DNA from: Sporohalobacter salinus
GTDB taxonomy: Bacteria > Bacillota > Halanaerobiia > Halobacteroidales > Acetohalobiaceae
Assembly (NCBI RefSeq): GCF_016908635.1
Contig: NZ_JAFBEG010000003.1
Location: forward strand, 62,001-126,000
Reading direction: 5' to 3'
DNA: 64,000 nucleotides
Both the position numbers and the translations under genes were made by a program. The notes beneath the pieces were generated by a model. It saw only the letters and a program-made list of their open reading frames with translations, was not told where the DNA came from and did not search any database. Each line of letters opens with the position of its first letter. Position 1 is the stretch's first letter. Shown here in pieces: positions 3,099 through 60,662 of the stretch.

Positions 3099-4664
3099 AT
3101 GGTTCAGAGTTCATTAACAGAGTCTATTACTAATAAAGATGATTTTACAGTAACTTGGGAGTTAGTTCCAGGTCGAGGAGCAAAAGAATCAAAGCAGGAA
3201 AAAATTTTTATTAATGCAGAAAAAGCTGCTAACAGTGACAAAGTAGATGGGGTAACTCTAACTGAAAATCCCGGTGGGAATCCTGCTATTTCGGCAGAAT
3301 ATTTAGGGATGAGAGTTAAAGAATTAGGGATTGATCCAATGGCCCATTTTACATGTAAAGATAAGAATCGAAATCAGATGGAAAGTTTTCTATATTCTTT
3401 AGAACGCGAGGGTGTATCAAATATTTTAGTAATGACTGGAGATTATCCAGGAGGAGGCTATAAAGGAAGTTCTAAACCAGTCTATGATTTAGATCCTACA
3501 CAGATTTTGGATTTAATTACTGATTTAAATGAGGGTTTGGAGTATGAAAATCATTTTGGGCGAACAATAGGCTTAAAAGAAACACATTTTTTTCCGGGAG
3601 TAGTAGTTTCTCCATTTAAAAGATTAGAGTCAGAGCAGATGGTTCAGTATTATAAGTTGAAGAAAAAAATTGAAAAAGGAGCTAAATTTATTATTTCGCA
3701 GCTTGGTTATGATGTTCGTAAATTCCATGAATTAATTCAATTTATAAAGATGAATGATTGGGATATTCCAGTTATCGGAAATATTTTCGTTTTATCCTAC
3801 GGTATAGGGCGGGCTATGAATGCTAACAGAATTCCCGGTTGTGTAGTAACTGATGATCTAGTAGAACAACTGGCTAGGGAGAAAAAAGCAGATGATAATG
3901 GAAAACATACACGTTTAATGAGAGCAGCTAAAATGTATGCTTTTATGAAAGGAATGGGATATGATGGAGTACATTTAGGTGGGCATGGTTTAGACTATGA
4001 AGAGTTAGAGTTCATTATAGAAAAAGGAGAAGAGCTAACCCCTAATTGGCGTGACTATATACATGAGTTTGATTTTCCAATTAAAGATGGTTTTTATTAT
4101 TTTGAAAAAGATGAAGAAACTGGCTTAAATACTGATAGACCTGCTGAAAGAAAGTCTAAACCGAAAAAAGAAACTGTCTATAGTATGTTTAGAATTGGAC
4201 ATAGTTTAATTTTTGACCCAGATGGATCTTTCTTTGGTCCAATGCAATCAATTTGTAGTTTGACAGATGACGGAGTTTTAGAAGACCCCTTCGACTTTAT
4301 GGAACGGGTAATTAAGACTATTACTAATGAATGTCAGGGATGTGGAGATTGTGCATTAACTGATTTAGCCTATTTATGTCCAATGTCACAATGTCCTAAA
4401 AATCAGCGGAATGGTGCTTGTGGTGGTAGTAAAGATGGTTGGTGTGAGATATATCCTAACGAGCAGAAATGTCTTTATGTGAGGGTTTATAATCGATTGA
4501 AGGCTTATGAAGAAGAAGAAAAGTTAAGAGATAACTGGGTTCCACCGGTTGATTGGGATTTAACCCATAAATCATCTTGGCTTAATTACTTTTTGGGTAG
4601 AGATCATACGGCTAATAAGATCGGGATTACTCTTCCAGATAACTCAGAAAACAAAGAAGCTTAG
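3099..4664 (+). CDS. metF: Methylenetetrahydrofolate reductase fused to MTHFR_C Cys-rich domain
   Basis: Residues about 15-330 match the MetF TIM-barrel family, which reduces 5,10-methylene-THF to 5-methyl-THF for methionine synthesis or the methyl branch of the Wood-Ljungdahl pathway. From about residue 385 a Cys-rich segment follows (CQGCGDC, YLCPMSQC, GACGG, WCEIYP, KCLY). This is the MTHFR_C/MetV-like domain, a separate zinc-binding partner subunit in some acetogens. It follows a SAM-I riboswitch and a strong AAGGAGGAG site, so it is repressed when SAM is plentiful. A hairpin terminator follows; it looks monocistronic. Confidence 0.9.
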   Translation: MVQSSLTESITNKDDFTVTWELVPGRGAKESKQEKIFINAEKAANSDKVDGVTLTENPGGNPAISAEYLGMRVKELGIDPMAHFTCKDKNRNQMESFLYSLEREGVSNILVMTGDYPGGGYKGSSKPVYDLDPTQILDLITDLNEGLEYENHFGRTIGLKETHFFPGVVVSPFKRLESEQMVQYYKLKKKIEKGAKFIISQLGYDVRKFHELIQFIKMNDWDIPVIGNIFVLSYGIGRAMNANRIPGCVVTDDLVEQLAREKKADDNGKHTRLMRAAKMYAFMKGMGYDGVHLGGHGLDYEELEFIIEKGEELTPNWRDYIHEFDFPIKDGFYYFEKDEETGLNTDRPAERKSKPKKETVYSMFRIGHSLIFDPDGSFFGPMQSICSLTDDGVLEDPFDFMERVIKTITNECQGCGDCALTDLAYLCPMSQCPKNQRNGACGGSKDGWCEIYPNEQKCLYVRVYNRLKAYEEEEKLRDNWVPPVDWDLTHKSSWLNYFLGRDHTANKIGITLPDNSENKEA

Positions 4665-5462: not shown

Positions 5463-6029
5463 ATGATAGAAAAAAAGATGATTGAATTATTACAGGAGAT
5501 GATTTCACCAGATAGGTTGAAACATTCTTTAGCCGTTAGGGATGTAGCTATAGACTTAGCCAAAAAATATGGAATTGAAGTTAAAAAGGTTAGAATTGCT
5601 GGATTATTGCATGATTCTGCCAAAGGAATATCCAATGATAACCTATTGAAAATGGCAGAAGAGTTTGGTATAGTAATAGATGATGTGATAAGGTCAGTAC
5701 CAGGGTTATTACATGGGCCAATAGGAGCAGAGTTGGCTAAAAAAGAGTTTGGTATTGAAGATGAAGAAATATTGAATGCAATTAGAACTCATACTTTAGG
5801 TGCTGAAGAGATGACAATGTTAGAGAAAATTATCTTTATTGCTGATTATATAGAACCTAATCGTACTTGTGCAGGTTTGGATGAATTACGAAAGAAGGCA
5901 AGAGTTGATCTGGACCAGGCTATTAGAGTGGCTTGTGATCGTACTTTAAAGTATCACATAAGAAATGATGATTTGATACATCCACAGACGCTGGCTACCC
6001 GAAATGCTTTTCTTAGAAAGGGTGGATAG
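5463..6029 (+). CDS. yqeK: YqeK-type HD-domain Np4N hydrolase
   Basis: An HD-superfamily metal phosphohydrolase of 188 aa. The HD motif (LLHDSAKG) is near residue 50, with further His/Asp ligands in LLHGPIGA, RTHTLGA and FIADYIEP. Proteins of the YqeK family hydrolyse symmetrical diadenosine tetraphosphate in Firmicutes. The gene lies directly after nadD, the usual order, and ends 3 bases before the LCP gene, so translation is probably coupled. Confidence 0.92.
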   Translation: MIEKKMIELLQEMISPDRLKHSLAVRDVAIDLAKKYGIEVKKVRIAGLLHDSAKGISNDNLLKMAEEFGIVIDDVIRSVPGLLHGPIGAELAKKEFGIEDEEILNAIRTHTLGAEEMTMLEKIIFIADYIEPNRTCAGLDELRKKARVDLDQAIRVACDRTLKYHIRNDDLIHPQTLATRNAFLRKGG

Positions 6030-58216: not shown

Positions 58217-58411
58217 ATGGAATGTACAATAGAGAAAAATAAGGAAAATTGCAATTGTACCTACAGCCCCTGTCCCCGTAAGGGAAATTGCTGTGAATGT
58301 ATTGCTTATCACCGCAAAAAGGATGAACTACCGGCCTGTTTCTTTTCAGATGAAGTAGAAAAGACTTATGACCGGTCTATTGAGCGTTTCATAGCATATC
58401 ATTCCGAATAA
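58217..58411 (+). CDS. DUF6485-like small cysteine-rich protein
   Basis: A 64-aa protein with six Cys in its first 30 residues ([21 protein letters not shown]) and a conserved-looking LPACFF at 38-43. This fits the DUF6485 family, presumed metal-binding, function unknown. The ribosome site is a G6 tract (58201-58206) 10 bases before ATG 58217. thpR starts 12 bases after it, so they probably form an operon. Confidence 0.85.
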
Positions 58412-58423
58412 GGGGGGGCAAAT

Positions 58424-58981
58424 TTGCGTTTGTTTATAGCTATTGATTTAGTTAATAAAGATGTGAAAAATAAACTAGTTGATGTGCAAAGAGAAATTAA
58501 AGAGTTACATGCTGGCAAGATAAAGTTAGTAAAGCCCGAGAATTTTCATTTAACGCTGAAATTTTTGGGAGAAGTAGAGGATACTGAAATCGATAAATTA
58601 AAAAAATTACTTAAAGAATTTAAAGATTATTCGCAATGTGATATTGCTGTTAGGGATTTAGGGGTATTTCCCCATTATGGATATATGAAAGTAATTTGGG
58701 CAGGATTAGAAAATAATGAAATTTTACAGGAAATCAAGTCTAAATTCGAGGACAAGTTTGTTAAACTAGGATTTGATAGAGATAAGAGAGAGTTTCATCC
58801 CCACCTTACTATCGGAAGAGTCAAAAATATTTGGGCAAAGGATAAGTTAGTGAATACCTTAAAAGATTTTAAAGACCAAGAATTTGGTAAATTAACGATA
58901 GATAAATTAAAATTGAAAAAAAGCACTTTAACCTCCGATGGACCGGTTTATGAAACTATAAGTGAAGTGAAATTAGATTAA
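58424..58981 (+). CDS. thpR: RNA 2',3'-cyclic phosphodiesterase (2H family)
   Basis: ThpR opens RNA 2',3'-cyclic phosphates. The 185-aa protein has both HxT motifs of the 2H superfamily: FHLTLKF at 41-47 and HPHLTIGR at 125-132, and the LRLFIAIDL-type N-terminus. The start is TTG 58424, 5 bases behind a G7 run that acts as ribosome site; no ATG is near. It follows the DUF6485-like gene and is followed by a terminator. Confidence 0.94.
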   Translation: MRLFIAIDLVNKDVKNKLVDVQREIKELHAGKIKLVKPENFHLTLKFLGEVEDTEIDKLKKLLKEFKDYSQCDIAVRDLGVFPHYGYMKVIWAGLENNEILQEIKSKFEDKFVKLGFDRDKREFHPHLTIGRVKNIWAKDKLVNTLKDFKDQEFGKLTIDKLKLKKSTLTSDGPVYETISEVKLD

Positions 58982-59010
58982 ATCTCTGGATTTTTTCCAG
59001 AGATTTTTTT
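58981..59010 (+). terminator. Terminator after thpR
   Basis: AATCTCTGG and CCAGAGATT pair around TTTTTT-containing sequence and are followed by a T run. The hairpin begins at the thpR stop. Confidence 0.94.
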
Positions 59011-59021
59011 ATTATCTGATA

Positions 59022-59049
59022 TTGACATTTCATTTTAGTTTTCTATAAC
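59022..59049 (+). promoter_or_regulatory. Promoter of Cys-rich peptide/permease module
   Basis: TTGACA (59022-59027) and TATAAC (59044-59049) have a 16-base spacer. The operator-like palindrome overlaps the -10 and start region. Confidence 0.75.
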
Positions 59050-59073
59050 TTAATTAAGTGAATACTTAATTAA
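59048..59073 (+). promoter_or_regulatory. Candidate ArsR operator 1
   Basis: TTAATTAAGT, 4 bases, ACTTAATTAA form a perfect 10-bp inverted repeat at 59050-59073; its left part also forms the 12-base palindrome ACTTAATTAAGT (59048-59059). Its place over the transcription start is typical for ArsR/SmtB repressors. A near copy lies before the arsR-like gene. Confidence 0.7.
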
Positions 59074-59092
59074 ATTATAGGGAGGCATAATT

Positions 59093-59209
59093 ATGTGTGA
59101 TGAGTCTAAATGTGAATATCCCGAGAAATTAGAAGGTAAGCCTGGAGAATGTTCTCCAGAACAGATCGAAAAATGTCATGGGGAGGAGAGAAGCCATTCT
59201 TGTAATTAA
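59093..59209 (+). CDS. 38-aa cysteine-rich small protein
   Basis: A small ORF with a GGGAGG site 6 bases before ATG 59093. The 38 residues contain five Cys and two His (CEYPEKLEGKPGECSPEQIEKCHG and a final HSCN), which suggests metal or metalloid binding. It is the first gene behind an ArsR-type operator and is followed by two half-permeases and the repressor gene, so a sensor, chaperone or buffering role for the same ion is inferred. I cannot name the family with certainty. Confidence 0.82.
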   Translation: MCDESKCEYPEKLEGKPGECSPEQIEKCHGEERSHSCN

Positions 59210-59216
59210 TAACAGG

Positions 59217-59249
59217 TTGGAGTCTGCTCAATAGTTGAGTAGGGTCCAA
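59217..59249 (+). other. Hairpin between Cys-rich peptide gene and permease gene
   Basis: TTGGAGTCTGCTCAA pairs with TTGAGTAGGGTCCAA (one mismatch, two G-U) around TAG. Without a T-run it may tune expression between the peptide and the permeases. Confidence 0.55.
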
Positions 59250-59283
59250 TAAATACTTATTGGTTAAAAGGAGGGAAACTTTA

Positions 59284-59763
59284 TTGTTTTATATTTTAAC
59301 TTCAATTTTAATTATAATTCTTTTCTTTAAAGATCGGCAAAAGACGATAATTGGAGTTAAGAAAGGAATTAAAAAATTGACTAAAAATTTACCAGCTTTT
59401 CTTAATATGATAATTTTAGTGTCTATTTCGCTTTACTTTATTTCCGATGAAGTATTGGTTAAGTATTTAGGTCAGGGAAGTGGAGCTTCAGGATTTTTAT
59501 TAGCTAGTTTTCTAGGTTCAATTACTTTAATGCCTGGCTTTATTGCTTTTCCGTTGTCTGGTCTTTTATTAGATAAAGGAGTAAGTTATACAGTTATTGC
59601 TCTTTTTACTACTACCTTAATGATGGTAGGAATTTTAACTTATCCAGTAGAAAAGGAATTTTTTGGTTGGAAAGTAACAATTATTAGAAATGTTTTAAGC
59701 TTGTTGATAGCTTTAATTGTTTCTATATTAGTCGGGATTTTTTATAATGAGGTGATTATTTAA
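59284..59763 (+). CDS. Half-size permease A (ArsP/UPF0718-like)
   Basis: A 159-aa membrane protein with about four helices. It contains LGQGSGASG near residue 70 and TLMPGFIAFPLSG near 90, matching one half of the permease family that includes ArsP-type metalloid exporters (usually about 300 aa). TTG 59284 is chosen because AAAAGGAGG lies 9 bases upstream; the longer frame contains that site. It overlaps the second half-permease by one base (TAATG). Substrate inferred only from the ArsR context. Confidence 0.75.
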   Translation: MFYILTSILIIILFFKDRQKTIIGVKKGIKKLTKNLPAFLNMIILVSISLYFISDEVLVKYLGQGSGASGFLLASFLGSITLMPGFIAFPLSGLLLDKGVSYTVIALFTTTLMMVGILTYPVEKEFFGWKVTIIRNVLSLLIALIVSILVGIFYNEVII

Positions 59764-60284
59764 TGAATAAGGGATTGAAACGGTATCTATTAGCAATTAT
59801 ATTTTTAATTTTTATTTGTGGAAGCTTTTTATTTGGGTATGCTCCTGGTAAAGATATATATTTTAACTTTTATGATTTTCTTAGAACAATGCTAAAATTT
59901 TTACCAGCTGTTTTTATTTTGATTGGACTCTTTGATGTCTGGGTTGATAAAGAGATTATTGAAAACCATTTAGGACAGGATTCATCTGTTTCAGCTTATT
60001 TTTTGGTAATACTATTGGCAGGAACTACTGTTGGTGGATTATATATAGCATTTCCTATTGCCTATGCTCTTAGAGAAAAAGGGGCAAGACTTAGAATTAT
60101 CTTTACTTATATTGGAGCAGCAGCAATTTGTAGAATTCCAATGACACTTTTTGAAGCATCATTTGTTGGAATCAAGTTTACTATAATTAGATTATTAACT
60201 TCAATTCCTTTAGTGATTTTAACTAGTATTTTATTAGAAAAATATCTTAATAGGAGAGATTATGAGCTCAAGAGGGATTTATAA
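59763..60284 (+). CDS. Half-size permease B (ArsP/UPF0718-like)
   Basis: A 173-aa membrane protein with about five helices. It has LGQDSSVSA near residue 74 and TTVGGLYIAFPIAYALREKGA near 90, clearly paralogous to the previous gene, and a final KFTIIRLL stretch also shared with it (KVTIIRNV). The two probably pair to form one transporter. Overlap by one base with half A points to 1:1 expression. Full-length ArsP-like permeases are single chains; here the gene is split into two. Confidence 0.78.
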   Translation: MNKGLKRYLLAIIFLIFICGSFLFGYAPGKDIYFNFYDFLRTMLKFLPAVFILIGLFDVWVDKEIIENHLGQDSSVSAYFLVILLAGTTVGGLYIAFPIAYALREKGARLRIIFTYIGAAAICRIPMTLFEASFVGIKFTIIRLLTSIPLVILTSILLEKYLNRRDYELKRDL

Positions 60285-60293
60285 TAAATTAGG

Positions 60294-60322
60294 TTGTCCA
60301 TTTTTTCATATTACTATATAAT
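60294..60322 (+). promoter_or_regulatory. Promoter of arsR-like gene
   Basis: TTGTCC (60294-60299) and TATAAT (60317-60322) with a 17-base spacer lie just upstream of an operator-like site. This gives the regulator its own promoter within the module. Confidence 0.65.
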
Positions 60323-60328
60323 TTAAAT

Positions 60329-60339
60329 ACTAATTAAGT
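60329..60339 (+). promoter_or_regulatory. Candidate ArsR operator 2
   Basis: ACTAATTAAGT differs from ACTTAATTAAGT of operator 1 by one missing T. It lies at the expected transcription start of the arsR-like gene, which points to autoregulation. Confidence 0.6.
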
Positions 60340-60356
60340 CAACAGGGGTGATTATA

Positions 60357-60662
60357 CTGCAAGAACTACTTACTAGTCTAAAAGCAATTGCTGATGAAAA
60401 AAGATTGAAGTTATTAACTTTACTTTTAAAACAAGACTATTGTGTTGGAGCTTTGGCTAAAGAATTAGGAATTTCTAAATCTGCTGTTTCACAGCATCTA
60501 AAAGTTCTTAGAAAATCTGGACTTGTCAGTGGTGAAAAGAGAGGTTATTGGGTCCATTATTCTGTTCAGGAAGATAAATTAATAAAATTATCAGAGAAAT
60601 TAAAAGAACTTATTCCTGGTTCCAATTTTCAATCAAATGGATGCTGTCATTATTCTGATTGA
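60357..60662 (+). CDS. ArsR/SmtB-family metalloregulator
   Basis: A winged-helix repressor of about 101 aa. The helix-turn-helix is seen in LAKELGISKSAVSQHLKVLRKSGLV (about 32-56) and the wing in GEKRGYWVHYSV. Cys residues lie in YCVGALAKEL (the alpha-3 place of ArsR-type sensors, but with one Cys only) and as CC in the C-terminal NGCCHYSD, so metal or metalloid sensing is likely. CTG 60357 fits the spacing to AGGGG better than GTG 60348, which overlaps it; both are possible. It ends 8 bases from a convergent gene. Confidence 0.88.
   Translation: MQELLTSLKAIADEKRLKLLTLLLKQDYCVGALAKELGISKSAVSQHLKVLRKSGLVSGEKRGYWVHYSVQEDKLIKLSEKLKELIPGSNFQSNGCCHYSD

Follow-up and report, generated by a model that had tools for sequence, protein, structure and literature searches.

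The operon studied here, which encodes a small cysteine-rich peptide (38 aa), two half-size permeases (PermA and PermB) and an ArsR/SmtB repressor, lies in a window of 64,000 nucleotides of Sporohalobacter salinus (genome G000); the window is the whole stretch of DNA that was analysed. I lean, with modest confidence, towards reading it as a detoxification unit built on a portable cassette of ArsR, operator and peptide, to which an exchangeable exporter is joined, in this case an antiparallel pair of ArsP half-permeases. What the computation shows is the gene order, the palindrome in front of the operon, a peptide that is conserved and linked to ArsR, the separate occurrence of peptide and permease pair, and the opposite charge bias of the two permease halves. 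The recurrence of sensor and peptide across anaerobic bacteria, beside different exporters, suggests a reusable detoxification cassette.

Organisation of the operon

Four open reading frames (ORFs) follow each other on the forward strand in the order peptide-permA-permB-ArsR. They lie 3' of a rho-independent terminator of the preceding gene (ORF 58424-58981), also on the forward strand; this terminator, already pointed out in the first-pass annotation, spans 58980-59006 and consists of an 11-pair stem and a T run (MFE -16.2 kcal/mol; fold z -5.3). The ORF 3' of the ArsR gene is on the opposite strand, running from 61999 down to 60671. Two genes upstream of the operon, before the terminator, there is a second small Cys-rich ORF of 64 aa (Pfam DUF6485, 58217-58411).

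A probable forward-strand promoter can be read from the sequence at 59022-59049, with TTGACA (59022-59027) and TATAAC (59044-59049) separated by 16 nt. It was not listed by the consensus scan because the last base of its -10 element is C; at the aligned site the -10 element is TATAAT in loci L046, L044 and L045. Between the -10 element and the ribosome site of the peptide gene lies the operator palindrome, TTAATTAAGT-GAAT-ACTTAATTAA, a perfect and strand-neutral 10-4-10 arrangement at 59050-59073 that the first-pass annotation had overlooked.

The peptide gene (59093-59209, forward strand) is followed by permA (59284-59763, 159 aa), permB (59763-60284, 173 aa) and the gene of the repressor P0004 (60348-60662, 104 aa), likewise forward. 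The start of permA is most likely the TTG at 59284, which is preceded by a GGAGGG ribosome site (59270-59275) and aligns with the starts of permA relatives; the start at 59260 given in the ORF list was rejected, because the ribosome site comes after it. An RNA hairpin is predicted on the forward strand between the peptide gene and permA (59205-59264; MFE -22.9 kcal/mol for 59205-59285, z -3.84). The folded segment has no T run, and the hairpin could set the ratio of peptide to permease.

A conserved peptide linked to ArsR

The small protein with five cysteines that the first-pass annotation had singled out (Cys 2, 7, 20, 28 and 37) is indeed present and belongs to a conserved family. Twelve columns are invariant in an alignment of 10 rows, including C7, C20, C28, H29, H35 and C37. 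The motif C(S/T/I)-x(5-6)-CHG occurs in all 26 aligned peptides and CHG-x(2-5)-H-x-C in 24 of them; these counts describe the family and are no test of it, because the rows were chosen for their resemblance to the query. Relatives were found in 4 of 13 genomes of the order, 11 of 59 of the class (E<=0.01) and 17 of 299 of the phylum, as well as in 2 of 198 genomes in the phylum of the Spirochaetaceae locus; one match, in G015 (E 0.007), enters the class tally and is excluded from all other counts. No relative was found in the plasmids and viral contigs searched. The peptide had no match in Pfam or NCBIfam up to E 1, none to a curated metallothionein family and none in the PDB sequence set.

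Variants of the motif were seen at a few loci. In L062 it makes up the C-terminal end of a Cys/His-rich protein of 140 aa (3687-4109) encoded between ABC exporter genes, and in L081 it is tandemly duplicated within one short ORF. In L105 an ABC ATPase is fused to a stretch resembling the peptide, which was rejected as degenerate (CQG, no H-x-C).

The most constant neighbour of the peptide is ArsR. An HTH_5 match lies within 3 kb of it in 16 of 24 peptide genomes, against 0.27 expected from the count of HTH_5 genes and the genome size (Poisson P 4e-23); the remaining eight have no ArsR within that distance, some of them owing to contig ends. Three more genomes, G178, G456 and G500, were outside the HTH_5 search and bring the peptide genomes to 27 in total. 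Inspection of their neighbourhoods showed an ArsR adjacent to the peptide in G500 and none recognised beside it in the other two. In-house gene calls, which take the longest ORFs, can hide short genes, and the ArsRs of L065, L066, L091 and L093 were masked by these calls and recovered through the HTH_5 search.

The exporters found nearby are diverse. By labels that rest mostly on blastp to seeds, some of them checked with Pfam or NCBIfam, an exporter is near the peptide in 19 of the 27 genomes; the classes are ABC-2, MsbA/MdlB-like ABC, ChrA, MOT1-like, MATE, split ArsP and, labelled by eye in L151, RND-type. In eight genomes the surroundings of the peptide show no recognised exporter: G047, where the contig ends close to it, G113, G151, G178, G185, G308, G331 and G456.

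Peptide and permease pair are separable. The complete set of four genes occurs in G000 and G004, with identical order, and nowhere else among the genomes examined, so that the outcome which the first-pass annotation had named as refuting, a gene set that is not conserved, is reached in part. One of the 22 genomes reached via 23 pair loci has the peptide, namely G357 (apparently identical to G020), and there it adjoins a ChrA pair, away from the split permease. G001, of the same genus as the window genome, has the pair, an ArsR with CC and a perfect operator, and the peptide search of the order genomes found no peptide in it; since G001 keeps the rest without it, the peptide is dispensable. The earlier idea of a peptide dedicated to the transporter of the window is thus not supported, since the peptide keeps company with ArsR and with exporters of several classes.

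The ArsR sensor

P0004 is a clear member of its family, scoring 64 bits against HTH_5 (cut-off 22) and 87.8 bits against NF033788 (cut-off 55). Its best solved relative is SmtB, at 55 bits; an identity as TsoR was set aside (53.8 bits, cut-off 115). It has one cysteine in the DNA-binding domain (Cys32, in YCVGALA) and two in the tail, Cys99 and Cys100. The terminal CC reported by the first-pass annotation therefore exists, near the terminus and not at it, as the tail ends in GCCHYSD. Of the ArsR site, as defined in the excerpted text of PMC11868830, P0004 has the first Cys only (YCVGALA); set against the type 2 site (AfArsR) and the two-Cys SpArsR, it has the CC at 99-100 and no third tail Cys. 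According to the same excerpt, two C-terminal Cys suffice for the methylarsenite-responsive SpArsR, and an organo-arsenical inducer is therefore one candidate.

Tail cysteines are common among the ArsRs adjacent to the peptide, at least one being present in 15 of 17 loci and at least two in 13 of 17; the two without are L091 and L151. Where an ArsR stands beside the pair with no peptide, L015, L026 and L012 have no tail Cys, and L119 and L046 have CC. Close ArsR relatives encoded away from the peptide score 87-101 bits in G051, G047, G025, G020 and G082; those of the first four (L062, L063, L064 and L067) score 87-91 bits, with 49-56% identity to the window ArsR. In G005 and G010-G012, order genomes that bear the pair and lack the peptide, the best ArsR match reaches only 43-52 bits.

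In the ArsR tree the peptide-adjacent sequences group together, with weak clade support (82/91, drawn open). The group is intermixed with L012, L015, L026 and L119 and includes ArsRs that have no neighbouring peptide; outside it fall L141, L146 and L147, together with L001, L051 and L148, which stand beside a full-length ArsP or a thioredoxin-like gene. The row pep_L092 is out of frame and its placement is meaningless, the tail cysteines of L092 having been read in frame separately.

The operator

In G000 the query pattern has a single exact match, the palindrome in front of the operon. With up to three mismatches, 27 matches occur in this genome and 22 for the reversed-pattern control, which makes the two about equally common. 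The core TTAAGT-N4-ACTTAA is exact upstream of the window operon and of L042, L044, L045, L046, L094 and L095, and these zero-mismatch loci carry different exporters. When the gene start with the best match is chosen among those tried at each locus, 18 of the 26 peptide loci have the core upstream with two mismatches or fewer, and 13 with one or none. Shuffled upstream sequences reach at most one mismatch in less than 1% of trials and two in 1-7%, so that the two-mismatch cases are individually weak.

The operator is also found at peptide loci with no adjacent ArsR (L062, L063, L064, L067). Among 12 split-pair loci with no nearby ArsR of this group, two (L006 and L013) reach two mismatches or fewer, the others being L004, L005, L008, L012 (whose ArsR has no settled place in the tree), L014, L050, L053, L141, L146 and L147. 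Where an ArsR of the group stands beside the pair with no neighbouring peptide, the operator has two mismatches in L015, one in L026 (before permA) and one in L119.

A split permease

As first described, the two permeases are paralogous, half-size and overlap by one base: in TAATG, position 59763 is both the end of the permA stop codon and the start of permB. They share 29% identity over 128 columns (E 1e-12), and both pass the gathering score of Pfam ArsP_1 (PF03773; 32.3), with 35.5 bits for permA, computed from start 59260, and 38.9 for permB. Each covers about half of the 294-position model, that is, one repeat per chain. NCBIfam SaoE and SO_0444 were set aside for permB (13 bits, cut-offs 325 and 300).

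The family is widespread. The permB profile is matched by 93 of 299 sampled genomes of the window's own phylum (E<=1e-12, distant paralogue pairs included). By simple gene calls, both halves are neighbouring ORFs in 22 of 30 loci examined from this phylum search. A first scan of genome contigs gave 23 loci that have a relative of permB, and in 20 of these permA lay directly 5' of it. Of the other three, L026 has a single ORF composed of parts of the two genes, and no permA was seen in L020 or L023. The half-size form is not new in itself, because the excerpted text of a superfamily study already lists single 4-TMS units among several ArsP topologies (PMC7176098); together with the frequency of the pair in the phylum, this runs against the earlier premise that ArsP-like permeases are single chains.

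Other split pairs have other surroundings. Many ArsP pairs of other families adjoin a PadR-type regulator (L133, L139, L145, L125, L137, L140, L142, L143, L144), and in the first three of these the pair is also beside a Cys/His-rich protein of 62-76 aa, a parallel layout made of unrelated parts. In L119, L006, L051 and L052 the neighbours of the split pair are a thioredoxin-like gene and an ArsP_1 gene that is longer or of full length; all of these loci except L006 also have an ArsR nearby. In L017, from a Fermentibacteraceae MAG, the gene of an ArsC-like protein (5485-5949; 144.9 bits, short of the 174.3 required by TIGR02691) begins shortly before the split pair ends. In L047 and L048 a cyclodeaminase-like gene, so labelled by eye, adjoins paired ArsP_1-like halves of a second, distant family.

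With regard to orientation, loop 1 of permA has, among the aligned relatives, a mean net charge of +5.7 and a mean of 6.8 Lys/Arg, and its N-terminus is neutral; in permB the N-terminus carries +2.6 and loop 1 +0.3. The charge biases are opposite, and the two chains are therefore predicted to be oriented oppositely. Adjacent paralogous halves with opposite positive-inside bias, the mark of paired antiparallel half-transporters, are present in this family. PermA and PermB are thus predicted to form an antiparallel heterodimer, supported by the charge bias, which is the pattern that such a dimer would show. AlphaFold models of the halves have pLDDT of 81 and 76. For neither half did Foldseek find a PDB match at E<=0.001; VIA-align gave for permA a best Z of 6.4 (138 residues at rmsd 4.9), a value of the kind that common arrangements give. 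No solved sequence relative was found for full-length ArsP, for either permease half or for the peptide.

The CxC motif is absent from all 21 permA rows in the alignment of pair loci and present in one of 22 permB rows (L022), outside the ArsP position. The permA alignment omits L020 and L023, which have no permA match, and L026, in which one ORF joins parts of permA and permB; the permB alignment omits L026 and the truncated L023. Because neither half has the ArsP CxC motif, arsenic as the permease substrate is unproven, and the same alignments give no support to the first-pass proposal of a soft metal or metalloid as what this permease carries.

Proposed mechanism and alternatives

The operon of sensing, binding and export under ArsR control that was proposed at the outset is supported. 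Sensing of a thiophilic metal or metalloid would agree with the operator palindrome, with the conservation of the peptide and with the two tail cysteines of ArsR. We infer the following course. With no inducer, ArsR would sit on the palindrome at 59050-59073, over the transcription start, and repress peptide, permA and permB. A thiophilic ion, or an organic derivative of it, would bind Cys32 and/or Cys99-Cys100 of ArsR and cause its release. The peptide would be made first, in the cytoplasm, where its conserved Cys and His may bind or buffer the same ion, a role modelled on metallothioneins under SmtB-type repressors. PermA and PermB, inserted in opposite orientations, would constitute one exporter, equivalent to a full-length two-repeat permease. 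The exporter would be the exchangeable part, as the same ArsR group, operator and peptide are found elsewhere with ABC, ChrA, MATE and MOT1 transporters.

A bolder version of this mechanism may be put forward tentatively, as possible more than probable. The novel family of Cys/His peptides of about 40 residues, the group of ArsRs with Cys in the tail and the dedicated operator TATAATTTAATTAAGT-N4-ACTTAATTAAATTAT would form a portable sense-and-bind cassette serving at least five exporter families. The peptide would be a gene-encoded metal(loid) ligand, by which transporters with no metal-binding Cys (the split ArsP pair is one) could export the ion, either bound to the peptide or once the peptide has passed it on.

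The substrate might not be a metal(loid) at all, and what the cysteines of ArsR sense might be an oxyanion or a reactive species, either organic or sulfur-based. This is somewhat unlikely, yet the permeases have no CxC, the partners ChrA and MOT1 belong to oxyanion-transporter families, and the sulfite-sensing, ArsR-type BigR is among the weak matches of P0004 (50 bits, cut-off 155); on the other hand, the Cys/His peptide resembles a metal ligand, and some pair loci are beside an ArsC-like gene (L017) or ArsP and a thioredoxin-like gene (L006, L051, L052, L119).

An action of the peptide on ArsR, loading metal into the repressor tail or stripping it from there and so tuning induction, is unlikely in my judgement, even if ArsR is its most constant neighbour (16/24) and tail Cys are present in 15 of the 17 adjacent ArsRs. 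The frames of ArsR and peptide are continuous in L095 and L103, although at both loci the peptide has an ATG of its own with a separate ribosome site, and fusion of the two proteins is not proven at either locus. Weighing against such tuning are the eight of 24 genomes with no ArsR adjacent to the peptide, and G001, with a CC-bearing ArsR and no peptide.

ArsD hands its ion to ArsA. That the peptide would be, by analogy, a dedicated metallochaperone for the split permease is decidedly doubtful: for all the identity of operon and order in G000 and G004 and the conservation of its Cys/His ligands, 21 of 22 pair genomes lack the peptide, G001 retains pair and ArsR in its absence, and the peptide accompanies unrelated exporters. 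Since its occurrence follows that of the sensor rather than that of the permease, a role as a ligand in the cytosol or as an ArsR partner is favoured over that of a dedicated chaperone; a generic hand-off to any exporter may occur, and hand-off to the window permease in particular is conceivable rather than favoured. It is very improbable that the metal-loaded peptide is itself exported, as a gene-encoded counterpart of phytochelatin export, since ChrA and half-size ArsP are unlikely peptide carriers, even if several partners (ABC-2, MsbA-like ABC, MATE) belong to classes that carry organic molecules.

Should the preferred reading, that of a portable cassette with an exchangeable exporter, be true, a family of small proteins for which Pfam and NCBIfam have no model would get a testable role, and a single inducer would be tied, through a predictive operator, to several exporters of anaerobes that are poorly understood at present. 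The half-size pair family, present in about one third of the sampled phylum genomes, would gain a model, the antiparallel heterodimer, and a candidate class of substrates. Knowing what induces one repressor would aid the annotation of the remaining cassettes together.

Comparison with known systems

SmtB controls the small metallothionein SmtA. The window operon is like SmtB-SmtA, and like AzuR-NmtA (AzuR being the subject of PMC8790569), in placing a small Cys-rich peptide under a repressor of the ArsR/SmtB family; it differs in that its peptide has five Cys and no Pfam, NCBIfam or PDB match, and shares an operon with an exporter. Searches of the open-access literature for split ArsP, for Sao/Tso and for ArsR with a small Cys peptide returned no description of the window set; nor were the peptide family, the operator or the exchange of exporters found described there, which does not prove their absence.

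The permease side has its own parallels. In Shewanella putrefaciens, SpArsR is a MAs(III)-responsive ArsR next to arsP, as the portions of PMC11868830 and PMC12124457 used here describe it, and there, too, an ArsR with two C-terminal Cys is beside a permease of the ArsP_1 family; the window permease, in contrast, is split and has no C(S/T)C, its ArsR has the extra Cys32, and a peptide gene is present. The ArsP organo-arsenical exporters (TC 2.A.119) belong to the family whose Pfam ArsP_1 gathering score both window halves pass; in a partial text, C(S/T)C, a motif of a transmembrane segment in these exporters, is given for all ArsP homologues surveyed in 2015 (PMC4435449), whereas the window permeases have one repeat per chain and lack this motif. 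The same genome holds at L001 a full-length ArsP with a thioredoxin-like gene and an ArsR, that is, the same permease family with an ArsR neighbour; L001 differs in being a single chain with CSC, in an ArsR with no tail Cys, and in having no peptide and no such operator. Paired short-chain chromate transporters (SCHR), described as opposite-topology pairs in the part of PMC5640608 drawn on, resemble the window pair in consisting of two paralogous half-length genes of opposite charge bias, although they belong to an unrelated family (Chromate_transp, against ArsP_1 here). In its design, an ArsR-type repressor with a small Cys-rich peptide, the operon resembles the smt/azu systems, and its permease is of a known family.
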